From NCBI RefSeq assembly GCF_000280925.3, contig NZ_CP012109.1:3492501-3556500 (forward strand): a DNA stretch of 64,000 bases, in the 5' to 3' direction. Every line of letters starts with the position of its first letter. Position 1 is the first letter of the stretch. Shown here piece after piece: positions 20,531 to 46,032 of this stretch. A program made the translations under genes and the position numbers. The notes under the pieces were generated by a model. It saw only the letters and a program-made list of their open reading frames with translations. It made no database searches and was not told the origin of the DNA. The DNA is from Myxococcus hansupus. GTDB taxonomy: Bacteria; Myxococcota; Myxococcia; Myxococcales; Myxococcaceae.

Positions 20531-25823
<5,293 letters not shown>

Positions 25824-25957
25824 CGCTTCCACCCGTGTGCGAGGCGCGCACTCCCCGTTGAGGCGCAGGAGGGTAGCCGTGGCACACGGGCCTCGCAACA
25901 CAGGGCCCGCCGCGAAAGCCCGGTTGGCGGGAGTGGAGCGCGCCTCCCGGGTGTGCG

Positions 25958-27490: not shown

Positions 27491-27520
27491 CGCTGTTCAA
27501 AAATACGCGCGGAATGAATG

Positions 27521-27543
27521 GCACAAGGCGTTGTGCTTTTATT
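27521..27543 (+). terminator. Intrinsic terminator after phytoene desaturase
   Basis: Perfect six-base arms GCACAA/TTGTGC around a GGCG loop (27521-27536) are followed by TTTTATT. It ends the desaturase transcript about 30 bases after its stop. Confidence 0.8.
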
Positions 27544-27593
27544 CGTAGGTTCATGCTAATCCTTGCTGCGCCGTGCCCAGCGAAAGGATTGTC

Positions 27594-27794
27594 ATGCGCA
27601 AGGGAATCCAGAAGTGGGTATTCGTCGTGGGAATTGCCGTCGGAGGCGTGTTGGGAACCATCCGCCCGAGCGAGGCCCAGGCCAGTAGCGATCGGTGTCC
27701 AGACATGTGTGCCGATGACAGTTGTACCTGCGTCTATCGGTGTTTCGGATTGGGCGCGCGTTGCATCTGTGAGGATGTTCCAACGTGCTTCTGA
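27594..27794 (+). CDS. Small secreted cysteine-rich peptide
   Basis: A 66-residue protein starting at 27594 after an AAAGGA ribosome site. Residues 1-30 form a signal peptide (KWVFVVGIAVGGVLG, then SEAQA). The mature peptide of about 36 residues contains eight cysteines (segments RCPDMC, CTC, YRC, RCIC and PTC), an even number compatible with four disulfides. It could be a compact disulfide-rich toxin or signal peptide, or a metal binder. No known family is recognised. It lies in an AT-richer island just after the desaturase terminator and is not linked to an obvious maturase. The lanthipeptide genes are 1.4 kb away on the other strand. Confidence 0.7.
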   Translation: MRKGIQKWVFVVGIAVGGVLGTIRPSEAQASSDRCPDMCADDSCTCVYRCFGLGARCICEDVPTCF

Positions 27795-28034
27795 GTCGAC
27801 GTGCACGCAGTGCGCAGTGAAGCACCCTGATTTCATTCGGGCGGGCCTCCCTGGTTGGGCGGCCCGTTCTTCATGGCGCGGTCACTCCCGGAGCCGGGGT
27901 GTGCCTCGACATCACTGTGAGCGCGGCATTCGTTCCCATGAAGGGGCGGGACGCCAGGCGTCCGAAGGTCGGCCGGCGGGCAGCTCGGTGCGGTGATGAG
28001 ACCGCGCGCGGCTCCGGCCGGGTATTCTCCCGGC

Positions 28035-28637
28035 ATGAGCACGAAGCGCCTCTCTGGACTCTGCCTCCTGCTGACGGCCTGCGCGACCACGCCGCGCGAG
28101 CCCACCTCTGTCGCGGAGGCGTACGCCCGTGCGCTCGAGGAGGGCCGCGTCGGGGATGCGTTCGCGCTGACCGTCGGTGGCCCCGAGGAGGAATCGGCGT
28201 TCCTGGAGCGCTACTCGGATGCTGAGGCCCGGACCGCGCGTGCGGCGGATGTTCGCGCGGGAGCCTCCGCGCTCGAGGCGCGAGCGCCGTCGCTCACGGT
28301 GGCGCAGAGTCCCCAGGGGTGGCGCGTGGTCGAGGCCCGGCCCGCGGACGTGCCGCGTGCCGCGCTCCGGCTCTTTATCGACCGGGTGGAGGCGCGCGAC
28401 TGGAAGTCGGCTTGGAGCCAGCTCGCGGGCACTCTACGGGCACGCTACACGCCGGAGCGGCTGAAGGAGGACTTCGAGCGCGAGCCGCTGGCGAAGGAGC
28501 GCCTCCGCCGCGCACGGCTCGCGCTCAACACCCACGTGCGTGTCGGCGCTGGCGAAGCCGTGTTTCCCCTGGGCGACGACCGCGCTGTCCGCCTGGTGCT
28601 CGAGGATGGTGAGTATCGAATCGCGGCGATCGAGTGA
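28035..28637 (+). CDS. Predicted lipoprotein of unknown function
   Basis: A 200-residue protein starting at 28035 (MSTKRLSGLCLLLTACATT) with lipobox LTAC (Cys17). The rest is alanine/arginine-rich, with two similar halves built around AYARALEEGRVGDAFAL and LFIDRVEARDWKSAW, which suggests a duplicated NTF2-like or DUF4878-like fold (tentative). No catalytic residues are visible. It ends 20 bases before the next gene's ATG, so the two may be co-transcribed. Confidence 0.7.
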   Translation: MSTKRLSGLCLLLTACATTPREPTSVAEAYARALEEGRVGDAFALTVGGPEEESAFLERYSDAEARTARAADVRAGASALEARAPSLTVAQSPQGWRVVEARPADVPRAALRLFIDRVEARDWKSAWSQLAGTLRARYTPERLKEDFEREPLAKERLRRARLALNTHVRVGAGEAVFPLGDDRAVRLVLEDGEYRIAAIE

Positions 28638-28657
28638 CACGAGACGGGGCAGGACAC

Positions 28658-29146
28658 ATGTTGAACTTCGACGATCCAAAGTGGAAAGAACTCAGCGGCG
28701 GTTACCGGATTCCGTACGACGCCTCCGTGGCCTTGCGCGAGTTGGAGGCGGGAGAAGACGCCTGGGATGAGCTCTGGCAGGAGTTGCACCATCAAGGCGA
28801 CGTGGGCGAGGCCTCCTATGCGGCCGTTCCTCACCTCGTGCGAATCGCCAGTGCAGCGCCCCAGATAGACAAGAACCTCTTCAGCCTGGTCGCCACCATT
28901 GAAATCGAGCGTCACCGGGGCTTGAACCCGCCGCTCCCCGACTGGTGTCAGGCGGCGTACGCGAAGGCCTGGGCCGAGCTGATCGAATTGGCGTTGAGGG
29001 ACATCCGGCACGCGACCGAGCCATTCGACGTTCAGTCCTTGCTCGGCGTCATCGCTCTCGCCAGAGGGCAGCGGAACCTGGGGGAGTTGCTTGCGTTGAC
29101 GGAACCCTCTGAACTGGAGGACCTCTTCGCTCGGTTCCGCGAGTAG
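28658..29146 (+). CDS. Conserved hypothetical protein, immunity-like in character (unassigned)
   Basis: A 162-residue soluble protein from the ATG at 28658, with AGGA nine bases upstream. Characteristic stretches are WKELSGGYRIPYDAS, WDELWQELHHQGDVGEASYAAVPHLVRIA and IEIERHRGL. Proteins with this helical, Trp/His-rich look recur in actinobacteria and myxobacteria without known function. Some toxin-immunity proteins look similar, but no toxin is nearby. It converges on the LanC-like gene. Confidence 0.6.
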   Translation: MLNFDDPKWKELSGGYRIPYDASVALRELEAGEDAWDELWQELHHQGDVGEASYAAVPHLVRIASAAPQIDKNLFSLVATIEIERHRGLNPPLPDWCQAAYAKAWAELIELALRDIRHATEPFDVQSLLGVIALARGQRNLGELLALTEPSELEDLFARFRE

Positions 29147-29170
29147 CGTGGCTCGGGCAGCGGCGCGCCC

Positions 29171-30436
29171 TCATTCCAACGCCAGGATACTTGGGAGCGC
29201 CTCGGGCGCCGCGAGGCGGAGCAGCGTGTAGCCCACGCCGCTGATTCCAGGAAAGAATCGCGGGTCGAGGGCCCCCTGGAACTTCGATGCGAAGACGAAG
29301 CCCCGGCGGCCCTCGGCGCGGTCGAGGGCTTCGCTGGCGAGCTGATGTGCCGCTGCTTGCGTTCCTGGGTCGCTCAGGCGGGCCCCCGCGAAGAGCAGCG
29401 CGTCGACGCGGCCGAAGTTCCCACAGCAGACGTCGTCAACGAGGCTCAGCTCGGCGCTGGCCGTTCGCGCAATCGCGAGTGGAAGTTCCGCCCGGACCTC
29501 GGCGGTATCGAACACCGTCAATCCACCACAGCGTGCGATGAGCAGGCCGGGAGCCCCCTTGCACCAACTGTTGAGGAAGCGCGGCTCCTCTGCGTGAAGG
29601 TAGCTCCAGTCCCGCCGCGCGGCATCGAACAGGCGGCGTTCATTCTCCATGGCTTCGACCGCGGCCGTGAGGAACGCTGGTGTGCCGGTACTCGCATGGA
29701 GGCGCAGCAGGGCGTACTCGATGCCCGCCGTACCGTGGCAGAAGCCTCCCATGGGAGAAGCACCCGCGTGCGCCCACGCCCGAAAGCCCTCGGCCACGTC
29801 AACGCGGCGGTCAAGAAGCCGCTGGCCACACAGAATGGCGAGCTCCAAGGGCGTGCGTCCCTGCGCGTTGGCACTGGGGCGCCGCTCATGGAGGGCCAGG
29901 AGGGCGAGCAGTGTCCCCGCGCAGCCGAGCATGACGTCCAGCGCTTCGTCGTTGGCGATCCGCTCCGCCGTGACGAGGCCTGAAATCTGGTGCGCGGTCT
30001 CGTGGAACGAGGGTTCGTCGAGCAAATCCCCGGCGCGGACCAACCCGTAAATCATCGAGCCCAGCCCGGACAGTCCTCCGAGGTCGAGCTGAACACGCGC
30101 AGCCCTCTCGGTATCGGTCACGAGCTGCTCCACCTCGCGTTGCAGGGGGCGCAGGGTTTCTCGACTGAGTTCGCCATACGCGGCGTCCCCGGTCACCCGC
30201 GCGAGGCCCGCGAGGAACAGGGCCACCCCGAGCGAGCCCGCGAACATCGTCGTCGGAAGGGGCGTCCATACGAGCTGGCCGGCCCGCTCGGCGGGCCCTC
30301 GCCAATAGACGGACCCGTCCTTGGCCCGGGCCGCCATCTTGAGGAGCGCCTGACCCAGGGTTTCGGCCGTCTCGCGGAAGTCCTCGGGCGGCCGGCAACC
30401 GCGCTGCTGCCGATGTGCGGCTTCGTCGGGCGACAT
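29171..30436 (-). CDS. Stand-alone LanC-like lanthionine cyclase with Cys-Cys-Gly zinc motif
   Basis: A 421-residue alpha-toroid protein of the LanC/LanM-cyclase family. The barrel motifs are SLGVALFLAGL, GGLSGLGSMIYGL, GGFCHGTAGIEYALL (H234), SWCKGAPG (C292) and VCCGNFG (C337, C338). In NisC the zinc ligands are Cys, Cys and His. Here the Cys-His-Gly motif is Cys-Cys-Gly, giving three Cys ligands, as reported for the promiscuous cyclase domain of ProcM. No dehydratase domain is attached. Its ATG lies one base after the lanM stop, so translation is coupled. It probably cyclises, or assists cyclisation of, the same precursor. Confidence 0.85.
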   Translation of the reverse strand: MSPDEAAHRQQRGCRPPEDFRETAETLGQALLKMAARAKDGSVYWRGPAERAGQLVWTPLPTTMFAGSLGVALFLAGLARVTGDAAYGELSRETLRPLQREVEQLVTDTERAARVQLDLGGLSGLGSMIYGLVRAGDLLDEPSFHETAHQISGLVTAERIANDEALDVMLGCAGTLLALLALHERRPSANAQGRTPLELAILCGQRLLDRRVDVAEGFRAWAHAGASPMGGFCHGTAGIEYALLRLHASTGTPAFLTAAVEAMENERRLFDAARRDWSYLHAEEPRFLNSWCKGAPGLLIARCGGLTVFDTAEVRAELPLAIARTASAELSLVDDVCCGNFGRVDALLFAGARLSDPGTQAAAHQLASEALDRAEGRRGFVFASKFQGALDPRFFPGISGVGYTLLRLAAPEALPSILALE

Positions 30437-30437
30437 G

Positions 30438-33400
30438 TCAGGGCACCACGGATGCCGTTGAACCCGAGCCCGCGGACGCTGTTGCCACGGGAGGATCCAG
30501 CGTCAGGACGGAGGGCACCTGGTCGGGCGCGGCAAGCCGCAACAGGCCCAGTCCAATCCCTGCCAATCCGTCCATCAACCCCGGGGTCTCGACCTTCAGC
30601 GGAACGCCTCCCTGGAACCCCTGTTCCTGGATGCTGGCGATGACCATGTTCGTCGTGCGCTGAAGCGTGGGACGCCACCGCTCCGGGTCGAGCTCGCGGC
30701 TGGCTGCCGCGAGCAGCTCGAGCACGGACAAGTCGCCATGGCACAGGCAGTGGTTGAGCCGCAGCCCATCATGGACGGCGGTGTGGAGCGCGGCCTGGGT
30801 GTCCTCGCGCAGCACCGGCGACTCGATGTGCCGCATCATGCGAAGGCGGGCCAGCCCGATGCCCACGGCGCCGTGGCACCAGGTCGACATGAACTGAGGG
30901 GGCTCCGGCAAGTGCTCGGGCCGCAGATCAATCCAGTTCCGCCGCGCCGGCACGTAGTGGTCGTTCTCGAAGGCGACCGCTTGCAGCGCCATGTCGCGAT
31001 ATCGCGCGTCTCGCGTGGCGCCATGGAGCTCGGCGAGGGCCCAGGCCATCCCCGCCGCGCCATGGGAGAAGCCGGTGAGTGCCCTGGTGGGGGACGCCGC
31101 GATCAACCATGCCTTTCCCTTGCCGATATCCCGCGCGGTCTCGAGCAGGCGGTCTCCGGCCTTTCGTGCCAGCTCCAACGCCTGGGGCTCGCCGCTCGCT
31201 CGATGGAGCCCCAGGAGCGGGGCAATGGCGCCCGTCGAGCCGCGAAGCAGATCCAGCTCCTTGTCCTGCGTCACCATGGCGCCGATGGCCGGCAGCAGGC
31301 CCACGGCGGCACGCATCAGCTCCGAGTCGTTCCACAGCGTCGCCAGATGCGTCCACGCGTAAAGGATGCCCGTCCAGCCGTCGTAGCCACCGAGATACTG
31401 CACCATGCGTGGGCGGCGCTCGAGCTGCCTGCGCAGCGTGTGCATGGCCCCGCGCGCCAGCTCCGTGAACTCCGGGCGGTCTGTCACCGCTCCAAGGTAC
31501 CCCAGGAAAAGCGCGACGCCGGGCAGCCCGCTGTACAGGTCGTATTCGAGGGGGCGCAGCCACCATCCCTTGGTACTGGTCCAGGCCAGGCCAATCCAGG
31601 AGACCCCATGGGGACCGTGACGAGCGCTTCGCACGAGCCGCTCGCCCACGCGAAGCGCGGCGTCGAGAACCTGCTCACGCGTCACGTCCATCACGTTCCG
31701 GGGCATCGGATACTGTTGCGTCTGTTGTTCGAGCCCCGAAGCCAGGGCCGTCAACGACGCGCGCACGAACCAGAGCTGGTGTTGGAGGTCCTCGTCACCC
31801 AGCGCACCCAGCCGGGCCTGGACCGTCTCGAAACCCGAGCGCGAGAAGAAGTCCGGCACCGCGCGTCCCAGGCTCGAGACGAGCTCCCGAGATTCAAATT
31901 GGTTCCGGAAGACAGGGATGTCGCCGTGCCAGAGCTCCTCGACCTCGTGGGGAATGAGCCGGAGCGACTGCTCCGCGAACTTGCTCCGCTGGATGCCGAA
32001 CCACATCCGGTCTTGATGGGCATCCCGATCCAGCGCGTCCCGGAGCAGGTCCGGGTGGGCGCTGTCGCGGAGGATGAACGCGTAGAACTGACTCGCCCTG
32101 AGGATGGTGCGGACCTCGGTGCCTCGCATCCTCAGCAGGGGGGAGCCTTCCGTCAGGAGGTCCTGCCGGGAGTCGAGGAGGAGCTTGTACATCCCGACGA
32201 AGCCCTCCTCGAGGTCCTGCGCGAACTGAAGCGGGTTGATGTCGTCGCCGTTGATGGACGGCCGGTTGGTGGCGGCGGGCATCTCGTGCCGCTGGTACAC
32301 GAGGTGCATTTCATCCGTGCCCCAGTTCTTCCAGGTCGCGGTCGGATGAACAGACGTCTGGCTCGCATCCCCGCCGATGCCACTCATGTCCGTGAACTGG
32401 CGTTCGAGCCCCTCGTGAAAGAACGGGAGCAACATCACCCGCATCACCGAATTGTCGATCTCATACTCCGCCGTCGAGTCGTACGTGTCCGGTGTGGAGT
32501 GTCCGTAGTCCGCGCCACACAGCGACTCCAGGTCGACGAGAACGGGATGCTCACCCGCGGCGATCAGGTTCTCGCGATGGATGTCGTTCCCGTTGAGCGC
32601 ATAGAGCAACGCCAGGAAGCTGCCCTGACGCTGATAGAACCGGGCCACTTCGTCGCGCGTCGTGCAAGGCCTGGCGGCGACGAACTCCGCCCAACCATGA
32701 TGCTGCCGCTGGATGACCCGGACCGCTCGGAGCTGAGGCGCCCCGCGGGCGTTCAACCACTCGAGGAGTTCTCCGAAGCGGGCATCAATGCCCATGGCCC
32801 TCGGCTTGTAGACGACGCGGAACCCCGACTCGAAGCGAAGGACCCTGACCGTGCGGCCGCGTTCATGGGAGTCACCCAGGCCGCTGGTGACCTCCACCAG
32901 CCGGCCAGGAGCCTGCTGGGGAGAGAACGCTTCACGAATCGCTGGGAAGTCCGCGGCCAATCGCCCCAGGAACTCCAAGGAGGTCTCTTCCCAGAAGTCG
33001 AGCTGCTGGATGACGAGGCGTGCGAGGACGGGGTAGTCGCACAGCAGCTCGAGCGCGCGCTTGGGCTGCGAGAGTCCGGCGACGAAGCGAGAGAAGCGCT
33101 CCTGGGGGGTGGCACCCTCGAGCGGCGCTTGCGACCGCGCGCGGTGCATCTCGAGAACCACCGTTCGGTCCAGGAGCCGGTCTACCTGGGCGCCCAGATG
33201 GGCGGTCACGAACCGGATGGCGCCGTCCGCGTCGAACGGGGCCTGGGGATGCGCTCGGGTGAGGGCTTCTGCTCCTTGCCGAACGCGGGCGACGGATGCG
33301 CGGATCAGGGGAGATACGATGGGGGCGAAGGTCCCCCCGAAGGCGTCTTTGAGCGGCTCCGCACCCGAGCGCGCATACGCCTCGGCGAGCCGGCTGAGCC

Positions 33401-33713
33401 AGTCGGGCGGGGTGGGGCACCGCGACTTCAGGGACTCCGCCGGCTCCGCGAGCAATGACAGGAGCGTCGCCTCGTCCATGCCCGCGTGCGTCAACCTGCG
33501 CGTCCACCAATCATTGTCCTGGAATGGAATCCGCCCGCGCCATCGGGTCAGACGCGCTCGGGCCGCCTCGATGCGTGTCTGGGATGGCGCCTCCGCTGAT
33601 GTGTGAGCAGGCCGGGGCAGTGCGAGGCGTTCAGCCAGGTTCAGCGCCAGGTACCAGCGTGCGTCGTCAAGGATGGGCGAGAGGGAGGCCCAAGACTCAG
33701 CGGATACGTCCAT
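30438..33713 (-). CDS. lanM: Class II lanthipeptide synthetase LanM
   Basis: A 1,091-residue bifunctional synthetase. The N-terminal dehydratase domain carries VVYKPRAMG (K303), GNDIHRENL (375-383) and LVDLESLCG, residues used to phosphorylate and eliminate Ser/Thr in the precursor. The C-terminal LanC-like cyclase has GFSHGAAGMAWAL, TWCHGAVGIG and the zinc motif CLCHGDLS (Cys-His-Gly type). Length is normal for LanM. The start at 33713 (MDVSAESWASL) is preferred because the 24 residues upstream lie in the intergenic hairpin and lack family character. No strong ribosome site is seen. It lies 111 bases downstream of the precursor gene, with a hairpin between. Confidence 0.93.
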   Translation of the reverse strand: MDVSAESWASLSPILDDARWYLALNLAERLALPRPAHTSAEAPSQTRIEAARARLTRWRGRIPFQDNDWWTRRLTHAGMDEATLLSLLAEPAESLKSRCPTPPDWLSRLAEAYARSGAEPLKDAFGGTFAPIVSPLIRASVARVRQGAEALTRAHPQAPFDADGAIRFVTAHLGAQVDRLLDRTVVLEMHRARSQAPLEGATPQERFSRFVAGLSQPKRALELLCDYPVLARLVIQQLDFWEETSLEFLGRLAADFPAIREAFSPQQAPGRLVEVTSGLGDSHERGRTVRVLRFESGFRVVYKPRAMGIDARFGELLEWLNARGAPQLRAVRVIQRQHHGWAEFVAARPCTTRDEVARFYQRQGSFLALLYALNGNDIHRENLIAAGEHPVLVDLESLCGADYGHSTPDTYDSTAEYEIDNSVMRVMLLPFFHEGLERQFTDMSGIGGDASQTSVHPTATWKNWGTDEMHLVYQRHEMPAATNRPSINGDDINPLQFAQDLEEGFVGMYKLLLDSRQDLLTEGSPLLRMRGTEVRTILRASQFYAFILRDSAHPDLLRDALDRDAHQDRMWFGIQRSKFAEQSLRLIPHEVEELWHGDIPVFRNQFESRELVSSLGRAVPDFFSRSGFETVQARLGALGDEDLQHQLWFVRASLTALASGLEQQTQQYPMPRNVMDVTREQVLDAALRVGERLVRSARHGPHGVSWIGLAWTSTKGWWLRPLEYDLYSGLPGVALFLGYLGAVTDRPEFTELARGAMHTLRRQLERRPRMVQYLGGYDGWTGILYAWTHLATLWNDSELMRAAVGLLPAIGAMVTQDKELDLLRGSTGAIAPLLGLHRASGEPQALELARKAGDRLLETARDIGKGKAWLIAASPTRALTGFSHGAAGMAWALAELHGATRDARYRDMALQAVAFENDHYVPARRNWIDLRPEHLPEPPQFMSTWCHGAVGIGLARLRMMRHIESPVLREDTQAALHTAVHDGLRLNHCLCHGDLSVLELLAAASRELDPERWRPTLQRTTNMVIASIQEQGFQGGVPLKVETPGLMDGLAGIGLGLLRLAAPDQVPSVLTLDPPVATASAGSGSTASVVP

Positions 33714-33752
33714 GGAAGATGACAAGCAGAAGGCTCCCAGGTGGATGAAACG

Positions 33753-33795
33753 ACTCTGGCGACGCGGGTGAAAGTCGACCCGCAATCGCCAGAGT
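33753..33795 (-). terminator. Strong hairpin between lanA and lanM (attenuator or partial terminator)
   Basis: A perfect ten-base stem (33753-33762 with 33786-33795) continues into a six-base stem (33764-33769 with 33778-33783) around an eight-base loop. It begins about 30 bases after the lanA stop. Only a weak T-run follows on the transcript, so partial read-through or mRNA stabilisation is likely. Confidence 0.7.
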
Positions 33796-33824
33796 TTGAA
33801 TCACATCTTTCGCAATGCGTCAGC

Positions 33825-34013
33825 TCAGCAGGAGCAGGCGCAGCCGTTGTGGGCCGTATCCGAGGTGGCCGGACAGAGGCAGCTCGTCTGGGTCGAGGTC
33901 GTGGTGGCCAGCATCGTGCTGCCACCCTCGAGACCGCCCGTCACCGTCTCCAGCTCTTCATCGGCAAGGACAGACGAACCCACGAGGCTGGTCAGATCGA
34001 ACTTGGTGCTCAT
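33825..34013 (-). CDS. lanA: Class II lanthipeptide precursor peptide (LanA)
   Basis: A 62-residue precursor with AGGAG nine bases upstream of the ATG. The leader (residues 1-27) has the class II signature [13 protein letters not shown] second Gly-Gly (LEGG, 30-31) follows at once. The core from residue 28 or 32 contains five cysteines (45, 47, 58, 60, 62), clustered as SCLCP and GCACSC. It also has 13 Ser/Thr residues, including a TTTSTQTS run, enough to form up to five (methyl)lanthionine rings. The closely spaced Cys-x-Cys pairs imply overlapping small rings. It lies between the C39 exporter gene and lanM on the same strand. Confidence 0.9.
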
Positions 34014-34057
34014 TGGGGGTGACTCCTGAGTAACGACGAAGACGTGAGTGTCTTCTG

Positions 34058-34083
34058 TCGTAAATAGAAGCCTATCTTTACGA
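34058..34083. promoter_or_regulatory. Inverted repeat upstream of lanA, overlapping its putative -10
   Basis: TCGTAAATAG and CTATCTTTACGA flank a four-base centre (AAGC), a near-perfect dyad with two unpaired bases. Its position over the putative -10 element suggests a repressor or activator site. It is too AT-rich to be a strong RNA hairpin. Confidence 0.45.
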
Positions 34084-34098
34084 AAGGTTTACTTTCAA
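34069..34098 (-). promoter_or_regulatory. Candidate sigma-70 promoter for lanA
   Basis: On the minus strand TTGAAA (34098-34093) and TAGGCT (34074-34069) are 18 bases apart, in the low-GC gap between the exporter gene and lanA. This would allow precursor transcription independent of the upstream operon. The -10 match is moderate. Confidence 0.35.
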
Positions 34099-34195
34099 CC
34101 GGTGCAAGCTGATTTTCTTGAAAGCGCTGGCGCTGTAAACGTTTAGCTTTGCGGGGATTGGGTGCTGCGTGTGTGCGTTGTGTATTGGGTCGAAG

Positions 34196-36418
34196 TCAAC
34201 CCAGACGCGAAACGCCATGGTCTGGTTCGACCTGGGCTTGCACCAGCGCGAAATAGGTGCCGTTGCGTGAGAGCAGTTCCTGGTGGCTGCCCGTCTCCAC
34301 GACGCGCCCGCCCTCCATGACGAGAATGACATCCGCCGTGCGAATCGTACTGAGCCGATGCGCGATGACGACGCGGGTGCAAGAGAGCGTTCCGAGCGCG
34401 CGCTGTACCTGGACCTCGGTGACGGCATCGAGCGCGCTCGTGGCCTCATCCAGAAGCAGCACGCTGGGGTTGCGTGCGAGTGCGCGTGCCAGTGCGAGTC
34501 GTTGCCGCTGGCCGCCCGACAAGGAGAGCCCGCGGTCCACCATGGGCGTGGCGTACTGCAGCGGCATGGCCATGATGTCATCGTGAATCTGCGCGAGCGT
34601 GGCCGCCTCTTTCACCTGGTCGAGGCTCATCTCGGGGTCATTGAGGGAGATGTTGTCCCGGATGGACGCGCCGAAGAAGGCGGGCTCCTGGAGCACGCAA
34701 CCCATCTGTCCACGCACCGCGCGAAGGTCCAGATCGGAGAGGTCCATCTCGTCGTAACGCACCCTGCCCGAGGTGGGGAGGTAGAGGCCGAGGAGGAGAT
34801 TGGCCAGCGTGGATTTGCCGGCGCCGGAACGCCCGACGATCGCCACCATCTGCCCGGGGTGGATGCGGACCGAGACGTCATGGACGACCGGCGCCGAGTT
34901 GGGGTGGTACCGGAACGAGACGCCCTCCAGCGTGATGCCTCCCTTGAGTTGGGCCTGGGTGCTCGCGGTGCTCGGCGTGCGTTCAGGGGGAGCGTCGAGC
35001 ACGTCGTTGATGCGCTCGAGGTAGCTGCCGAGCAACTGGAATTGACCGACCGTTCCCACCAGGTTGGAGAGTGGAACCAGCAGTGCGCCCGCGAGCGCGT
35101 TGATGCTCAGCATCTCTCCCAGCGTGAGGGATTTGTTCAAGACGAGGTAGGTGCCCACGCTCAGCAGGAGGAGGGGCGCCGCGAGCTGGAGTGTCTTCGT
35201 CAGCGAGTCCACCCACAGATTCAGGCGTCCGCGCTTCAACCCGATGTTGAGGATGTCGACGAAGAGGTTCGAGTAGCCCTGGACGGCGCGGTCCTCGCCA
35301 CCAAAGGCTTTCAGGGTCTGCATGCCCGAAAGCATGGCGATCTGATAGGTCTGCGCCTTGGCGTCCAGCTCCAGGTTTTGAGAGAGCAGCATGCTGCGCT
35401 GCTTCCCCGAATAGATGATGACGAAGACCTGCAGCCCGCCCAGAAGCAGGACCAGCAGGCCCATCAACGGGGCGGCGATGAAGAGCAGCAGGAGGTAGAG
35501 CAGCACGAGCGCGCCATCCAGCAGGCTGGAGATGGCGGTCGCGGAGATGGTCTCCCGCACGGTCGACTGCATGCCCATTCGCATCATCAGGTCGCCAGAG
35601 GGGCGGAGCTGAAAGAATGGGTAGGCCAGGCTCACCAGGTGCTCGAGAAAGCCCAGCGTCATTCCCGCGTCGACGCGGGTGCGAAGCTCCAGCAGCAGGT
35701 GCCCTCGCAGGAGGGAGGCGAGCAGTTGGAAGACCACCAGGGTCATCAAGGCGGAGCTCAGCACGAGCAGCAGGTGCACGTCCCCGCGGGGGACGACCCG
35801 GTCCACGACCATGCCGGTGAGCATGGGAACCGCCAGCGCGAACAGTTGCAGCGCGAGCGACACCACCACGATGCGAGTCAGCGTGCCGTGCTGCCGCAGG
35901 AGCGGCATCAGGTAGCGATAGGCGCCGCGACGGGTCGAGCCCGGCTGGAAGTCTTCCCGGGGTTCGAAGACCAACGCCACGCCCGTGAAGTACTGCCGGA
36001 ACTGCTCCATCGAGACCTGGCGCCGCCCGACGGCGGGGTCCACGACGTGAACGCTGTTCTTGTCCAGCCGTTCGAAGACGACGTAGTGGGAGAAGTTCCA
36101 GTGGAGGACTGACGCGGGCGGCAGGTAGGCCAGTTTGTCCACGTCAATGGAGACGCCGCGGCCCCTCAGGCCCAGCTTGGAGGCGGAGGCAATGAGGGAC
36201 TTCGCGGTGGTGCCATCACGCGAGGCGCCCGTGAATTCGCGCACCTGGTCCAGGCTCATGTCGCGGCCGTGGTAGGCCAGCACCATGGCGAGGCACGCAG
36301 GACCGCAGTCCGTGAGCGTCATCTGGCGCACGTCCGGGATGCGGGCACGGCCCCCCGGTTTGAGGCGCTTGAGCGCGGGGAATCGCTGGAGGAGTCCGGG
36401 CTTGGGGTCAGCGCTCAT
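34196..36418 (-). CDS. lanT: C39 peptidase-containing ABC exporter (LanT)
   Basis: A 740-residue peptidase-containing ATP-binding transporter. The N-terminal C39 Cys-protease domain has C38 in TLTDCGPACLAM, H111 in HWNFSHYVVF and D127 in VVDPAVG, and cleaves after double-glycine leaders. A six-helix transmembrane domain follows (about residues 165-460). The C-terminal ATPase has GRSGAGKST, LSGGQRQRLALARA and LLLDEATSALD. It should cut LanA after Gly-Gly and export the core. It overlaps the upstream HlyD-like gene by 11 bases and is followed by the precursor gene. Confidence 0.94.
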   Translation of the reverse strand: MSADPKPGLLQRFPALKRLKPGGRARIPDVRQMTLTDCGPACLAMVLAYHGRDMSLDQVREFTGASRDGTTAKSLIASASKLGLRGRGVSIDVDKLAYLPPASVLHWNFSHYVVFERLDKNSVHVVDPAVGRRQVSMEQFRQYFTGVALVFEPREDFQPGSTRRGAYRYLMPLLRQHGTLTRIVVVSLALQLFALAVPMLTGMVVDRVVPRGDVHLLLVLSSALMTLVVFQLLASLLRGHLLLELRTRVDAGMTLGFLEHLVSLAYPFFQLRPSGDLMMRMGMQSTVRETISATAISSLLDGALVLLYLLLLFIAAPLMGLLVLLLGGLQVFVIIYSGKQRSMLLSQNLELDAKAQTYQIAMLSGMQTLKAFGGEDRAVQGYSNLFVDILNIGLKRGRLNLWVDSLTKTLQLAAPLLLLSVGTYLVLNKSLTLGEMLSINALAGALLVPLSNLVGTVGQFQLLGSYLERINDVLDAPPERTPSTASTQAQLKGGITLEGVSFRYHPNSAPVVHDVSVRIHPGQMVAIVGRSGAGKSTLANLLLGLYLPTSGRVRYDEMDLSDLDLRAVRGQMGCVLQEPAFFGASIRDNISLNDPEMSLDQVKEAATLAQIHDDIMAMPLQYATPMVDRGLSLSGGQRQRLALARALARNPSVLLLDEATSALDAVTEVQVQRALGTLSCTRVVIAHRLSTIRTADVILVMEGGRVVETGSHQELLSRNGTYFALVQAQVEPDHGVSRLG

Positions 36419-37352
36419 CCAGCACGAGTCCTCTCAGGCCGGGAATCAAGGTCATCAAGATGGATTCGGATCGGACACGCGCTTCGACACGCGCGGGCAT
36501 GCCGTCGAAATAGGCGAACTGCCTTCCCCCGTGGACGAACGAGGATGACGGCAGCCGCGCGCGGACCAGGACAATGGGCCCCGTGAGCTCCAGGGTGTCT
36601 GACAGGTCGGGGCCCAGGAAGCGTTTGAATTCGCCCGGGCCGATGATCTGGTCGCCCACCGAGTCGATGAGCAGCTCGTGGTAGTCGTACTGGAAGCCGT
36701 CGAGCTCCGCCCGCAGGGACATCCCAGGGTGCAGGAAGGGGCGGTAACGGCCCGGGAGGAAGGCCAGCAGGTAGGCCGGTGCCTCATCCGCCATCATGGA
36801 CATGACGAGCGCGCCGGGCGTCAGGTATTGGCTGGGCTGGATGCGCACGTCGCCCACCACGCCGGTGAATGGCGCGCGAATGGAGCGCAACTCCAGCCGG
36901 GCGCTGGCGGACTCACGCTCCGCGCGAAGTGACGTCAGGGCCTGACGCGCGGCGGTGTCGGAGGGATTTCGCAGATACCGCACGAGCTGGAGGTCGAACT
37001 CCTGTTGGATCCGGGACAGCGCGGTGCGCTCCTCGTTCGCATCGAAGGTGACCAGCGCTTGTCCTTCTTCGACCCGCTGACCTGGATGAACGAGCACGGC
37101 GGAGACCACGCCCGCGCTCGGCGCCGTCAGGTCGGTGCGGCCCTCGACGCGAACCAGCGCTGGACCCGAGGCGTACTCAAACAGGGTCCCGACGATGCTG
37201 TAGAAAAGCGCCAGCACCACCAGGGCGACCAGCATCACGTAGCCCCAACGCGTCCATTCAGGAGAGAGTTCGAGCAGCTCTCCTTCGACGCGGACCGCGC
37301 GCTGGTAGTGGTCAATGGCTTCCTTTCGGAAGATGGACGGCTTGCCTTCCAC
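36408..37352 (-). CDS. HlyD-family membrane fusion protein (LanT partner)
   Basis: A 314-residue periplasmic adaptor. It has a short cytoplasmic N-terminus, one transmembrane helix (about residues 40-60, YVMLVALVVLALFYSIVGT), a biotinyl-lipoyl-like hairpin (DLTAPSAGVVSAVLVHPGQRVEEGQ), a brief coiled coil and a beta-barrel C-terminus. The GTG at 37352 is preferred, with AGGAG nine bases upstream. An ATG at 37454 would overlap the preceding adaptor gene by 65 bases and add a proline/arginine-rich tail. It overlaps lanT, so the two probably assemble into one envelope-spanning exporter as in bacteriocin type I systems. Confidence 0.85.
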   Translation of the reverse strand: MEGKPSIFRKEAIDHYQRAVRVEGELLELSPEWTRWGYVMLVALVVLALFYSIVGTLFEYASGPALVRVEGRTDLTAPSAGVVSAVLVHPGQRVEEGQALVTFDANEERTALSRIQQEFDLQLVRYLRNPSDTAARQALTSLRAERESASARLELRSIRAPFTGVVGDVRIQPSQYLTPGALVMSMMADEAPAYLLAFLPGRYRPFLHPGMSLRAELDGFQYDYHELLIDSVGDQIIGPGEFKRFLGPDLSDTLELTGPIVLVRARLPSSSFVHGGRQFAYFDGMPARVEARVRSESILMTLIPGLRGLVLDER

Positions 37353-37389
37353 GTCTTCAGACTCCTGTCTCCCGGCGGCGTTTGGGGCG

Positions 37390-38346
37390 CTACCGCCCGG
37401 AGGTCTTGGCGAAGGGCTTCGTCCCGGAGTCGTGGAGCGGTCCAGGCGCGACACGGACGACGCTGCCCGCAGGCGCGCTTCCGTCCTTCGGCGCGTCCTT
37501 CAGTTGGGCAATCACGAGGATCATGCGTGACGCGGCATCCACCTCGGGGGCGATCTGCGTGACGCGTCCTTCCAGCGGGTCTTGTCTCCCAGCGAGGTGG
37601 ACCCAGGCGCTCGCTCCGACGGAGATCTGGCGGGCGTCTTCTTCGGGGAGGGCGAAGCGGACCTGGGGAGCGCCGGAGCTCAGGAGGAGCACGAGGGGCT
37701 CTCCCGCCTGGATTCGCCTTCCCGGGTCCACATATCGGCTGGCGACGACGCCTTCGAAGGGGGCCCGAATCGTCGCATCCGAGAGCCGCTGGCGAACCAG
37801 GGACGCGCGTGCTTCCTGCTCACGGACCCGTGCCTGCGCGGCGTCCTTCTTCGCGACGGCCAGGTCGTTTTCATAGCGGACCGTCATGAGCTCTTCTTCA
37901 GAGATGGCGCCCAGTGACAGTTGGCGAGGATCCTCCCGGCGGTGCAGGCGAGCCGCGGCGTCTTGGACTCCCAGTTCCGCGATGCGCAGGTCGGCGCGCG
38001 CGGAGAGCAGCTCGGCCTCACTGATGGCAAGCTCGCGCTCGAGCGGGCGCAAGTCCAATCGCGCGATGACGTCGCCTTGCTTCAAGGCGTCGCCCACGTG
38101 GACAGGCACCTGCATGAGCAGCCCCTCGGAGGGGGAGGAGATGTCCACGGTCTCTTGCGGCACGATGACGCCGAGATGACCTGTGGGCGACTCGGATTGC
38201 GGGCGCATGGGCACGTGTGCCCGCGTGGGTACGGATTCGACCGCCGGTTCCAACGGATTGCGAGCCTTCAGCCTCGTGACACTCACGACCACCACGGCCG
38301 ATGCGAGTACGATGCCGATTGCAGCGCTCCAGGCTCTGGAAACCAT
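37390..38346 (-). CDS. Second HlyD/RND-type membrane fusion protein
   Basis: A 318-residue adaptor. It has an N-terminal signal anchor (WSAAIGIVLASAVVVVSV), a lipoyl-like segment (VDISSPSEGLLMQVPVHVGDALKQGDVIARLD), a predicted alpha-hairpin of about 90 residues, then IRAPFEGVVASRYVDPGRRI and a beta-barrel tail. Its domain order is closer to efflux adaptors than that of its neighbour. Two different adaptors in one operon with a single ABC protein are unusual. One may partner an outer-membrane factor or another inner-membrane pump encoded elsewhere. It lies 37 bases upstream of the second adaptor gene. Confidence 0.85.
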   Translation of the reverse strand: MVSRAWSAAIGIVLASAVVVVSVTRLKARNPLEPAVESVPTRAHVPMRPQSESPTGHLGVIVPQETVDISSPSEGLLMQVPVHVGDALKQGDVIARLDLRPLERELAISEAELLSARADLRIAELGVQDAAARLHRREDPRQLSLGAISEEELMTVRYENDLAVAKKDAAQARVREQEARASLVRQRLSDATIRAPFEGVVASRYVDPGRRIQAGEPLVLLLSSGAPQVRFALPEEDARQISVGASAWVHLAGRQDPLEGRVTQIAPEVDAASRMILVIAQLKDAPKDGSAPAGSVVRVAPGPLHDSGTKPFAKTSGR

Positions 38347-38356
38347 GAGCGCAGAA

Positions 38357-40045
38357 CTATAGTTTTTCCGTGTCTACCCTGGAAGCGCCCTGGCCCGGGG
38401 GTAGGGCTTGAAGCAGTCGCAGTTGCCTGGACGCTCCCCGAGGGAAGAACTTGATTTGACGCGGGCCGTCTTGGTTATCGACGGTGATTTCCAAGGGAAG
38501 GTCGGCGCGCCAGCCGTTGGCGAAGCGGTTGGAGTTCCGAAGGGACTTCAATTTCATGCCATTTCGAAGCCCAGCCCGAAATGCAGGGCCGGTGCGAAGC
38601 ACGCCCTTGATGGCGCTCTCCTTGAGCGACAGCTCGAGGTCGAATCCGGGGTCGAACGCGGGAACGGCGACGTTCCGGAAAGTGAATCCCGGGCCCAGCA
38701 CGCCAGGTGAGAGGGAGATGGGTTCTCCTCGCACGATGTGGCGTTCGAAGTCCGCGCGCGCATCGATTCCTTGGGCGGCCATGTGCGCGAAGAACGCGGA
38801 TTCACTCAAGGTGCCGCCAGCCCCCGCCACTCGCGCTGCGAGTTCCTTGATGAGCGCCGCCAGGCCTTGGGGGTTCCCTTTCGCCTTGAGCTGGAAGTCC
38901 CACTCGAGCGCGATCAACGCGCCCCGGTAGTAGGCGAGTTTCTTGGCCGCGGCATTGAAAGCGCCTTGCTTCGCGACGGAGACGATGGCGGCGTGGGTCG
39001 CGTCGCGGTGCGGATTGTCCGCCAGGTTGATGAGGTCGCTGTTCACGAGCGCCGCGAAGTCGTTCATCGACATCAGCCCGTCCACGACCAGGAGCTGACG
39101 CGCGAGGTACTCCGTGAACCCCTCACTGAACCACTGATGGCGGAACTGGGCTTCGCTCGGGTCGAGGGCGATGTCGAGCTGGCCCGGCACCCAGGTGTGG
39201 AACATCTCATGCGCCAGGATGAGATGAAGTTCACGCGGGGAGATGTCCTTCTTGGCGAAGCAGATGAAGGCGTTGTCCACGGCCGTTCCCGCGATGACGC
39301 CGCTGCGAGGCCGCAGCACGACGTGGAAGAAGGGCGGTGGGGCTCCGCCGAACGTCTGGCGCTGCGCGGTGACGATGCGTCGAATGGCGGCGAAGATGTC
39401 GTCGACGGGGCGGTCGAACGCGCCATCGATGAACACGGAGACTGGACGCCCCTGGACCTGGAAGGGCTCGAAGCCGCCGGCGCCTCCGCCCATCGCGAAG
39501 CTGGAGAGGGCCTCGTAACTGGCCGTTGCCTCGGTCCGAGTCGCGTCCGACCCCAGCGTCGAGTAGAACCGCCAGGCCTTGGGCGCGTCTTTCAATTCAA
39601 TGACGTGCGGTCTGGCTTGTCGCGGGTCGCCCATTCGCAGCAGCCATTGGCACCCGGCGACGTGGAAGTGACGCGGGCCGACATTGGGGCCGTACGCGAC
39701 TCCATCCATGACTTGCGGATCGAATGACAGGACGTATGTCAGGTTCACGCGGCCATCTGGCCCCGGAGTGACGTGACGCTCGCTGGCATCCGTGCCAGCC
39801 GTGACGACGGTCCCGTGCTCTCCGGAGAGCGTCTTGACGAAGCGTTCGATGTCTGGCGTGCCGTAGCAGTCCTGGGGAAGCCCGAGGGACACCGGCCCCT
39901 CTTTGTCTGGCTTGAACCGCAGGGAGACCTTCAGGTCGGTGCGATCCTGCCCGGGGAGCGGCCTCACCTGGTAATGGAGCGGTGTCGGCACCGAGGGCTG
40001 TGTCGCTCCGAGAAGTGTGAGGGTGAGGAGGAGATTGACGCGCAT
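38357..40045 (-). CDS. Secreted M61-like metallopeptidase of the lanthipeptide operon
   Basis: A 562-residue gluzincin-type peptidase with an N-terminal signal peptide (VNLLLTLTLLGA). The zinc motif is H279-E-M-F-H283-TW and the third ligand is E308 in SEGFTEYLARQ, as in M61 glycyl aminopeptidases. The C-terminal 130 residues look PDZ-like (GVLRTGPAFRAGLRNGMKL), also typical of M61. It is the first gene of the same-strand operon, ten bases before the first HlyD gene. It could trim residual leader residues from the exported peptide, for example the LEGG stretch, or confer resistance. Both ideas are inference. Confidence 0.85.
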   Translation of the reverse strand: MRVNLLLTLTLLGATQPSVPTPLHYQVRPLPGQDRTDLKVSLRFKPDKEGPVSLGLPQDCYGTPDIERFVKTLSGEHGTVVTAGTDASERHVTPGPDGRVNLTYVLSFDPQVMDGVAYGPNVGPRHFHVAGCQWLLRMGDPRQARPHVIELKDAPKAWRFYSTLGSDATRTEATASYEALSSFAMGGGAGGFEPFQVQGRPVSVFIDGAFDRPVDDIFAAIRRIVTAQRQTFGGAPPPFFHVVLRPRSGVIAGTAVDNAFICFAKKDISPRELHLILAHEMFHTWVPGQLDIALDPSEAQFRHQWFSEGFTEYLARQLLVVDGLMSMNDFAALVNSDLINLADNPHRDATHAAIVSVAKQGAFNAAAKKLAYYRGALIALEWDFQLKAKGNPQGLAALIKELAARVAGAGGTLSESAFFAHMAAQGIDARADFERHIVRGEPISLSPGVLGPGFTFRNVAVPAFDPGFDLELSLKESAIKGVLRTGPAFRAGLRNGMKLKSLRNSNRFANGWRADLPLEITVDNQDGPRQIKFFPRGASRQLRLLQALPPGQGASRVDTEKL

Positions 40046-40257
40046 GCGTGCCCGGAGGGGTGTCCAATCGCGGCAATGCTACTCACGGATGAGAGGACTT
40101 GCCACGCGGGACGGGTCGGCGACTGTGGTTTTCTGTGAGGCCAAGGCGCTGTCCTGGGTGACCTACCTCTCCAGGAGGATGTTCAAAGGAGAGGGCTCGC
40201 GAGAACCTCCGCGCCGCCCTGCACCCGCCGGGGCCCATTCGATTGAGAGGAGAGTCC

Positions 40258-41250
40258 ATGCCACTGCCATTCATTCCCGTGGTGATTGGTGTCGCCGCCC
40301 TGCTTGGGTATGGCGGAAAGAAGAGCTACGACGGCGTCCAGGCCATGAGGGAAGCCAAGGCCATTGGTGAAGAGGCCGAAGAGCTTCATCGTGAGTGGAT
40401 TGCCCGCCTGGAAGACGCGCGCTCGCTGCTCCAGCTCAAGTTGGACGCCCTGGAATCACAGCGGAAGACCGTGACGGACACCACGTTCCGGCGCCTCTTC
40501 GACTTTCTGGAGCGGCTGGAACACAAGGCCCGGCTGTCCGCGCTGGAGAGCCTCGGGGCCCTCGGCGTGACGCGCGAGGAGGTGGGCCGTTTCACCGCCC
40601 AGTATCTGGAAGCGGGCGGAGCGCTGTCGGGCGCGGTCGCGGCGAGCCTCACCGGCGCGGGGGCGAGCGCGGTGACCACCAGTCTGGTCACCACCTTCGC
40701 GACCGCGGGGACGGGGACCGCCCTGTCCGGTCTGTCGGGCGCGGCGGCGAACAGCGCGCTGCTCGCGTGGCTCGGCGGAGGCTCGCTCGCGACGGGCGGC
40801 TTCGGCGTGGCGGGGGGCGCCGTCGTCCTGGGTGGAATCGCCCTGGCCCCGGCGGCGGTCGTCGCGGGCTTCGTCATCGCCAGGGAAGGTGAGAAGGCGA
40901 AGACGAAGGCCGAGGAGTTCGCGGCCGAGGTGGAGCGGGTGGTGGCGCAGCTTCAAGCGGCCGTCGAGCTCCTGGGCCGGGCGGGCCTCCGTGTCGACGA
41001 GTTGCGGGAGGTCACCGCGGCGCTCGACCTGCGCGCCAACCGCGCCATCGATGCCCTCTGGGCACTGGACGGCACATTCGACCCGGCCAACGACGAGCAC
41101 CTGCGCCAGTTCGCCACGGCGATGCAGCTCGCCAAGGCGGAGAGTGAGCTGCTCCGCGTGGCCATCTTCACGTCCGAGGGCAACATCAACGAGCAGGCGG
41201 AGGCCCTGCTGTCGCAGCAGCGCCAGTTCCTCCAGGAGTCCTTCGTATGA
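40258..41250 (+). CDS. Glycine-rich membrane protein flanked by coiled coils, unknown function
   Basis: A 330-residue protein from the ATG at 40258 (GGAGAG ribosome site). After a hydrophobic N-terminus (VVIGVAALLGYGG) comes a long helical region (about 25-115). A striking stretch of Gly/Ala/Ser/Thr-rich hydrophobic sequence follows at about 120-210 (SGAVAASLTGAGAS, LLAWLGGGSLATGG, AVVLGGIALAPAAVVAGFV), suggesting membrane hairpins with glycine-zipper packing. Another coiled coil ends the protein. I do not recognise an established family. It overlaps the next gene by four bases (ATGA), so the two act together. A membrane-remodelling or pore-related role is possible. Confidence 0.65.
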   Translation: MPLPFIPVVIGVAALLGYGGKKSYDGVQAMREAKAIGEEAEELHREWIARLEDARSLLQLKLDALESQRKTVTDTTFRRLFDFLERLEHKARLSALESLGALGVTREEVGRFTAQYLEAGGALSGAVAASLTGAGASAVTTSLVTTFATAGTGTALSGLSGAAANSALLAWLGGGSLATGGFGVAGGAVVLGGIALAPAAVVAGFVIAREGEKAKTKAEEFAAEVERVVAQLQAAVELLGRAGLRVDELREVTAALDLRANRAIDALWALDGTFDPANDEHLRQFATAMQLAKAESELLRVAIFTSEGNINEQAEALLSQQRQFLQESFV

Positions 41251-41642
41251 CGGTCGCGACGCTGGCGAAGGGGCAGACGCCCGGGATTGCCGAGGTGCTG
41301 GACGGCCTGAAGACGGTGGCCGACTGCATCCGGGACATCCACAAGGAGAAGACCGAGCAGGTCCGCATCCAGATGGCGGCGCACGTCGACGTGGAGCGCA
41401 TCCACGCCAACCGTGACGTCCTGCTCCACTATCTGGACCGTTCCTTCGACGAGCGGAAGGAGAACTTCCGTCAGCTCTTCGAGCGGCTCGACACCGCCAT
41501 CGCCACGAACAACCCCCAGCTCACGGGGGCCCTCCTGGAGTCGGTGCTGAAGCTCGCGGACTCCTCCCCGTTCAAGGCGCTCGCCGACGTGGCCTCGACG
41601 CGTGAGGTGTTGAGCGAAAAGGGCAAGGAGTGGCAGTTCTAG
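41247..41642 (+). CDS. Helical partner protein of the preceding membrane gene
   Basis: A 131-residue, entirely helical, soluble protein with no cysteine-rich or catalytic motif. Notable segments are LDGLKTVADCIRDIHKEKTEQVRIQMAAH and LDRSFDERKENFRQLFERLD, which look like coiled-coil helices. Its ATG overlaps the stop of the glycine-rich membrane gene, implying strict co-expression. It may bind the coiled coils of that protein. No family recognised. Confidence 0.65.
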   Translation: MTVATLAKGQTPGIAEVLDGLKTVADCIRDIHKEKTEQVRIQMAAHVDVERIHANRDVLLHYLDRSFDERKENFRQLFERLDTAIATNNPQLTGALLESVLKLADSSPFKALADVASTREVLSEKGKEWQF

Positions 41643-41657
41643 CGAGCGCGACGTGTC

Positions 41658-41691
41658 CTGGGGCGGGGCCCATGAGGCCCCGCAATCCCAG
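41658..41691. terminator. Bidirectional terminator hairpin between convergent genes
   Basis: A perfect eight-base stem GCGGGGCC/GGCCCCGC (41663-41670, 41676-41683) with loop CATGA is extended by CTGGG/CCCAG. It lies exactly between two converging stops. Confidence 0.75.
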
Positions 41692-41697
41692 ACACGG

Positions 41698-43848: not shown

Positions 43849-44041
43849 GACGCCTCCATGGGTTGGGTGAGTGCACGCCGTGTCGAACTCGAGGGCGGGG
43901 GACCGTACCACGCGTGCGGTGCCGCTCGGGCGTGTGCGGAGGGGTTGGCTGCTGTGCGAGGAAGCAGCATGCAGTACACCGGAACAAGACGGCGTGAGAC
44001 ACTCGCGACTTCTCGCGGACGGTGCTCCCGAGGCCCTCACC

Positions 44042-46018: not shown

Positions 46019-46032
46019 AGCGGGGAGGGCGC

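Follow-up and report, generated by a model that had tools for sequence, protein, structure and literature searches.

A probable mfu-type class II lanthipeptide locus with an additional stand-alone cyclase in Myxococcus hansupus

Gene content and organization of the locus

We analyzed a 64,000-nucleotide stretch of Myxococcus hansupus DNA (hereafter the window), taken from positions 3492501-3556500 of a genome that consists of one contig of 9,490,432 bases. Its minus strand carries, between positions 29171 and 40045, seven genes that in transcription order encode an M61 peptidase, two HlyD-type adaptors (a and b), a C39-ABC exporter, a precursor peptide, a LanM synthetase and a LanC-like cyclase. 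We consider it very likely that these genes form an mfu-type class II lanthipeptide cluster, which works along the pathway proposed below. A relative has already been described for Myxococcus fulvus, so the kind is known, and the oddest part of the present locus is the extra stand-alone cyclase. Lengths are given in amino acids (aa).

38357..40045, minus strand: M61-family metallopeptidase, MfuP-like, 562 aa (PF05299, E 1.3e-7; 7xyo_A, 689 bits, 56% identity)
37390..38346, minus strand: HlyD-type adaptor a (RND_mfp-like), 318 aa (TIGR01730, 112.7 bits, cut-off 94.9; PF13437)
36408..37454, minus strand: HlyD-type adaptor b, called at 348 aa, with its true start probably lying further in (PF13437, 43 bits)
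34196..36418, minus strand: C39 peptidase-containing ABC exporter (PCAT, LanT-like), 740 aa (PF03412, PF00664, PF00005; TIGR03796, 612 bits, cut-off 853)
33825..34013, minus strand: precursor peptide, 62 aa (leader ending in VTGG, LEGG stub, 31-aa core)
30438..33713, minus strand: LanM, bifunctional class II lanthipeptide synthetase (TIGR03897, 922 bits, cut-off 304; PF13575, 415 bits; PF05147, 214 bits)
29171..30436, minus strand: stand-alone LanC-like cyclase, 421 aa (PF05147 [LANC_like], 153 bits)

An earlier note on this DNA had placed seven genes here on one strand, with overlaps or tiny gaps at most of their junctions. Gene calls and family matches bear out the placement, with a Pfam or NCBIfam model matching every gene except the precursor (6/7), and four of the six junctions are indeed tight (an overlap or a gap of at most 10 bases). 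These are the 10-base gap between the M61 gene and HlyD a, the 65-base overlap of HlyD a with HlyD b (as called, the start of HlyD b being uncertain), the 11-base overlap of HlyD b with the exporter gene, and the single base between lanM and the LanC gene. The precursor gene is set off on both sides, by 182 bases from the exporter gene and by about 111 bases from lanM, the latter figure given a LanM start at the ATG at 33713, which is probably the true start rather than the TTG at 33785 where the open frame begins. The gene families likewise support the central claim of that note, a class II lanthipeptide locus with a Gram-negative export set of its own and a second cyclase.

LanM and the precursor peptide

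The LanM protein contains both a DUF4135-type dehydratase domain and a LanC-like cyclase domain, the latter with a complete Cys-Cys-His zinc triad. Residues 184-1100 align with LicM2 at 422 bits, and the protein also aligns with CylM. At 12 of 13 mapped positions (the roles of seven taken from PMC4550811) the CylM residue is kept; the sole change, Thr512 to Ser, recurs in 3 of 50 other LanM-type sequences in a table from which duplicates and copies of the window LanM had been removed. As T512A in CylM failed to eliminate phosphate, according to the portion of PMC4550811 available to us, this conservative replacement deserves a look but is no argument for an inactive LanM. The closest LanM that we found, at 45% identity, lies in stretch L143 of genome G154.

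The precursor has what a class II precursor requires, a leader followed by a core rich in Ser, Thr and Cys; the 31 residues of that core include 5 Cys and 13 Ser/Thr. The calculated monoisotopic mass before modification is 3066.217 Da for the core and 3422.386 Da for the core with LEGG attached, and each dehydration would remove 18.011 Da. The end of the leader reads EELETVTGG, which has what we take to be the shape of C39 substrates, and the four-residue stub LEGG follows directly after VTGG. The precursor had been described as a two-GG peptide, and both pairs are there, but the E-8/L-7/V-4 pattern that presumably marks C39 sites is present at the first (VTGG) and absent at the second (LEGG). 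A motif search of the fetched stretches returned 27 precursor candidates, the window's included. In 18 the leader is longer and starts in an AWKD- or AWKN-type fashion, which the window precursor does not. Ahead of its C39-type GG end, the window leader starts with MSTKFDL, a resemblance to what we take to be the class I FNLD-type box of nisin-like leaders that could be chance.

The M61 peptidase and the mfu cluster

The strongest link between this locus and a characterized system is its M61 peptidase. A sequence search of solved structures matched residues 20-553 to 7xyo_A at the score and identity listed above. The residues H279, E280, H283 and E308 (HExxH...E) are invariant across a 21-row alignment that comprises the window M61 and 20 of the 24 M61 genes called in retrieved related loci. 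A structural model built from these 21 sequences reached a mean predicted local distance difference test score (pLDDT) of 73.4; a single-sequence fold, at 33.9, was not used. Foldseek ranked 7XYO first for the model (E 7.2e-61), with a TM-score of only 0.56-0.60, and VIA-align placed it second (Z 25.7, root mean square deviation 8.4, 500 residues aligned) to 4FGM (Z 26.7). The N-terminus of the window protein, judged by eye, is hydrophobic and resembles a signal peptide.

The PDB entry 7XYO, released 2023-06-07, is titled "Crystal Structure of a M61 aminopeptidase family member from Myxococcus fulvus," and from the title, species, family and date we take it to be MfuP. As described in the accessible part of PMC10885120, a class II cluster of M. 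fulvus (Wang et al. 2023, JACS, 10.1021/jacs.3c06014) encodes a C39 exporter, whose C39 domain (MfuT150) cuts the leader off at a double glycine, together with MfuP, a crystallized M61 endopeptidase that is specific for the pentacyclic MfuA and cleaves within a ring of the finished peptide. The window locus resembles this system in its class, its C39 exporter with GG cleavage and its M61 peptidase; the mfu peptide is pentacyclic and the window core has five Cys. The comparison covers these features. A 56% identical M61 from M. fulvus and a class II cluster with MfuP and a C39 exporter, even as partly seen in PMC10885120, weaken the statement in the earlier note that no characterized product with this gene set was known. 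The same source calls the mfu peptides anti-inflammatory, which does not tell the natural role of the window product.

By analogy to MfuP, the window M61 would be exported and, once in the envelope, would cleave within one of the rings of the finished peptide. Two other roles have to be weighed. The Pfam family is named glycyl aminopeptidase, and the LEGG stub between VTGG and the core would offer such an enzyme a substrate to trim after C39 cleavage; the reported relative, however, is an endopeptidase that acts within a core ring and not on the leader, going by the accessible part of PMC10885120, and we regard trimming as unlikely. Somewhat more plausible, if still doubtful, is self-protection or turnover: the peptidase would stand in for LanFEG-type immunity genes, which the locus lacks, by opening rings in product that has built up or leaked back. 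In favor of it, no immunity family of Pfam or NCBIfam is matched by any of the seven genes; against it, the peptidase would also be explained if the finished product simply has one ring open, and the producer may not be sensitive at all.

The clade that unites the window M61 with 7XYO appears rare within the reach of our searches. In 195 genomes of the phylum, the next M61 matches at E <= 1e-14 were only 27-29% identical, and a scan of contigs from 84,980 species for two short peptide patterns common to the window M61 and 7XYO, which would miss orthologues that lack the patterns and near relatives of the window, returned 30 loci, none above 28% identity. No gene in those 30 loci was labelled LanM or LanC by the gene calls.

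The stand-alone cyclase

The LANC_like match of the separate cyclase spans nearly the whole domain, its frame is open throughout, and its zinc triad is complete but of the type Cys-Cys-Cys (CCC). We aligned 58 cyclase domains, after removal of duplicates and of stretches shorter than 360 aa or containing X, and found this triad in five of them, the window's stand-alone cyclase included; the other 53 have Cys-Cys-His. In a tree of the same domains the window cyclase groups with the other four CCC cyclases at a support of 0.985, and its neighbor is the stand-alone LanC of genome G056, a pairing that is weak, since its support is 0.731. The class I LanC of L119 lies outside this tree. The window LanM falls elsewhere, beside the LanM of L143, so the stand-alone cyclase is no recent duplicate of its neighbor; a recent copying from the C-terminal domain of that LanM was rejected on the different clades and an identity of 31%.

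Separate cyclases of this kind are seldom met in our data. Among other cyclase matches at E <= 1e-40 in the 195 genomes, a threshold that misses more distant separate LanCs such as the class I ones of L119 with their Cys-Cys-His triad, all lay in frames of at least 798 aa except that of G056 (483 aa). A pattern scan of contigs with LanC alone matched 135 stretches, with no relative among them. There is no match to the LanB of L119 at E <= 1e-10 between window positions 24001 and 45000, which leaves the window cyclase without the LanB that a class I assignment calls for.

Could the stand-alone cyclase be a passenger, with LanM carrying out all of the cyclization as in ordinary class II systems? 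The complete triad of the LanM domain would allow it, and among 34 fetched LanM stretches (frames of at least 200 aa, three LanC queries, E <= 1e-8) a separate LanC-like frame occurs in the window and in none of the 33 others. Set against this are the placement of the LanC gene a single base after lanM and the state of the protein itself, with its full triad, domain-wide match and unbroken frame. We give the passenger explanation perhaps one chance in a few, a little less than we give self-protection by the M61 peptidase.

The CCC triad has precedents. LanMs of the ProcM/SyncM type (CCG motif, CCC triad) share a three-Cys zinc triad with the window's separate cyclase; theirs lies within LanM itself, whereas the window LanM is Cys-Cys-His (PMC10027976 and PMC11251773, as far as these were accessible). 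The parts of these sources available to us attribute greater promiscuity or reactivity to CCG/CCC cyclases (PMC10027976; PMC11251773 section 3.2). Mixed cyclase cases, too, are already in print, as seen in the available portions of three reports: an area in Prevotella multisaccharivorax brings LanM-like and LanC-like genes together (PMC10352776), although this is a computational report on another order of bacteria, the accessible text of which mentions no M61; a single cyanobacterial cluster contains both CHG and CCG LanMs (PMC10027976); and in Bacteroidetes there are class I LanCs that cluster with LanM domains (PMC7268733). Given these cases and the M. fulvus relative, we file the locus under a known kind.

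The tree and triad alignment also show CCC-triad LanMs in L074 and L237. The window's own genome has a further class II locus (L069:6954-15686) with a CCC-triad LanM, a JmjC-type protein, an S41 peptidase and a B12-binding radical SAM protein.

The exporter trio

HlyD b has matches in 45 of the 195 genomes (E <= 1e-15, its own included), the best non-self match being 65% identical. From 76 match rows we fetched 40 stretches around its relatives, 39 matches and one in the window's own genome. HlyD b is present in all 40 by construction, since the stretches were chosen by it; a C39-ABC exporter is present in 40/40 as well, and the full HlyD-HlyD-C39 trio in 38/40, the two stretches without an HlyD a match above 90 bits being L156 and L158 (84 bits). 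The export set, which had been called unusual, is thus not peculiar to the window locus, and we rejected that notion. By tblastn, the enzymes found within these 40 stretches are LanM in 10, LanB in 2, a LanKC-type enzyme in 4, a JmjC/PhyH pair in 3 and none of these in 21; the LanM count is a lower bound, as the search can overlook a LanM truncated by the end of a stretch (L147 shows a partial match). The stretches from G056 add a third class I case. Because the trio is found beside class I, II and III enzymes, the paired-adaptor exporter, as judged from these gene neighborhoods, serves at least three lanthipeptide classes and is a general device of myxobacteria. An outer-membrane channel is absent from the window locus, and 33 matches to the OEP domain lie elsewhere in the genome.

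Two of these neighborhoods are instructive. The G154 stretch L143, home of the closest LanM, is among those holding both the trio and a LanM; it resembles the window in having LanM followed by HlyD, HlyD and C39-ABC, and in having a GG precursor. It differs in that no M61 or separate LanC was found in its 16.2 kilobases (kb) and in that its precursor has an AWKD-type leader and a core with 3 Cys. The class I locus of G056 (L088/L073) shares the trio with the window and, like it, has a stand-alone Cys-Cys-Cys LanC; we found no nearer stand-alone relative. It differs in having as its dehydratase a split LanB, with three Lant_dehydr_C proteins, and in the absence of any LanM or M61 match from its stretches.

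Specifically, the G056 locus (L088:17940-19837 and L073:52-11461) comprises a Lant_dehydr_N protein, three separate Lant_dehydr_C proteins, the CCC-triad LanC and the trio; the leader of a candidate precursor there (L073:3951-4229) ends in SGA, not GG. Across the Myxococcaceae, the trio stands beside class I, II and III enzymes in L119, L123, L126, L130, L131, L137, L143, L158 and others. L158, a LanB stretch that comes from the same genome as the window, contains HlyD b and C39-ABC but no ordered HlyD a.

Proposed pathway and significance

In the pathway that we propose, LanM would dehydrate Ser and Thr residues of the core and close thioether rings, of which the five Cys allow five at most. 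Acting in trans on the dehydrated precursor, the stand-alone Cys-Cys-Cys cyclase would close or correct some of them. The C39 exporter would cleave after VTGG during export, and the peptide would leave by way of the two adaptors and an outer-membrane channel whose gene lies outside the locus, to be met in the envelope by the M61 peptidase. What the sequence itself establishes is the identity of the genes, the LanM and zinc-triad residues, the HExxH...E residues of the M61 and its kinship to 7XYO; the reactions, the number of rings, the sharing of work between the cyclases, the C39 cut and the place where the M61 acts are deduced from these.

Several points weigh against assigning the locus to the mfu type. 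An M61 at 56% identity could differ in role from MfuP, and the equation of 7XYO with MfuP is drawn from an entry's title and circumstances. The mfu gene list was compared for M61 and C39 only, and the window exporter, at 612 bits, scores below the NHLM cut-off of 853 on TIGR03796. The precursor has no match in the Pfam or NCBIfam library and no clear homologue or second copy in the 195 genomes (a weak match in G031, E 0.0049, has an internal stop and was taken as chance). One might go further and regard it as nonfunctional, or as an artefact of gene calling, given this lack of a precursor homologue and given promoter and terminator scans that returned signals at or below chance. The six long frames that stay open, match known families and show conserved catalytic residues, and the GG precursor with its Cys-rich core between them, make that explanation highly improbable.

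A more specific version of the mfu-type pathway divides the labor between the cyclases, and we offer it as a tentative proposal that is less likely to be right than wrong. The Cys-Cys-His LanM would dehydrate and partly cyclize the precursor, the CCC cyclase would set the remaining rings or the stereochemistry in trans, and the exported M61 would open one ring, as maturation or as self-protection. Outside the window, the CCC cyclase lineage was seen as a separate protein only in the class I locus of G056, which has the same export trio. If the division is real, the window locus would be a chimera of class I and class II built on an exporter common to three lanthipeptide classes, and its CCC cyclase would be a tool for separating dehydration from cyclization in class II. 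The mfu work may itself describe a LanC-like protein, a point that we use solely to lower our claim of novelty. As a second, independent member of the mfu type, the locus would make the ring-cutting M61 step and the extra cyclase comparable between systems and the essential parts of the pathway identifiable. The HlyD-HlyD-C39 trio, for its part, offers a handle for finding several lanthipeptide classes in myxobacteria.

Chromosomal context

The flanks of the locus are widely conserved in the genus. The kinase flank (43871-46018) has a match of at least 79% in 27/27 genus genomes, its own included, and the oxidase flank (25958-27490) one of at least 76% in 24/27, with G010, G019 and G022 having only paralogues below 40%. 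In the nearest genome, G024, window positions 25000-28929 and 40244-46685 align at 90-93% identity in stretches that lie 365 bases apart, as against 11.3 kb in the window:

28930..40243, no strand: segment present in the window, with 365 bases in its place in the nearest relative G024 (blastn to G024 stretch L226)

By this alignment the segment is either an insertion in the window genome or a deletion in G024. A sharp boundary is seen in G024 alone; in G006, G001 and G007 the alignment is already lost at about 27.5-27.8 kb and picks up again at 41.7 kb, and G021 and G018 have about 19 and 18 kb of other DNA at the same interval. We rejected membership of the cluster in the core genome, as in 6/6 genomes from which the syntenic interval was fetched, blastn matched nothing there to 28930-40243 at more than 100 bits. 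The rarity of M61 and LanC orthologues favors gain in the window genome over loss in G024, and the presence of other genes in G021 and G018 suggests that window 27796-41682 may be a variable chromosomal site. Lower third-position guanine-plus-cytosine (GC) content was considered as a sign of recent gain and withdrawn; it does not decide the origin. It is 0.79-0.87 in six locus genes (the precursor not being called) and carries no weight, since the same range is found in near neighbors common with G024 (25958-27490, 27993-28637, 28634-29146 and 40243-41250).

At the interval 27796-41682, G021 (L230/L231) has chemotaxis, MacB-like and cupin genes, and G018 (L232/L233) has Asn synthase, Rieske and aminotransferase genes. 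Beyond the locus, a single protein encoded at 43871-46018 combines protein kinase, receiver and guanylate/adenylate cyclase domains, and the start of its frame, as called, is overlapped by an 857-aa open frame at 41698-44271 with an RPE65-type (carotenoid oxygenase) domain.

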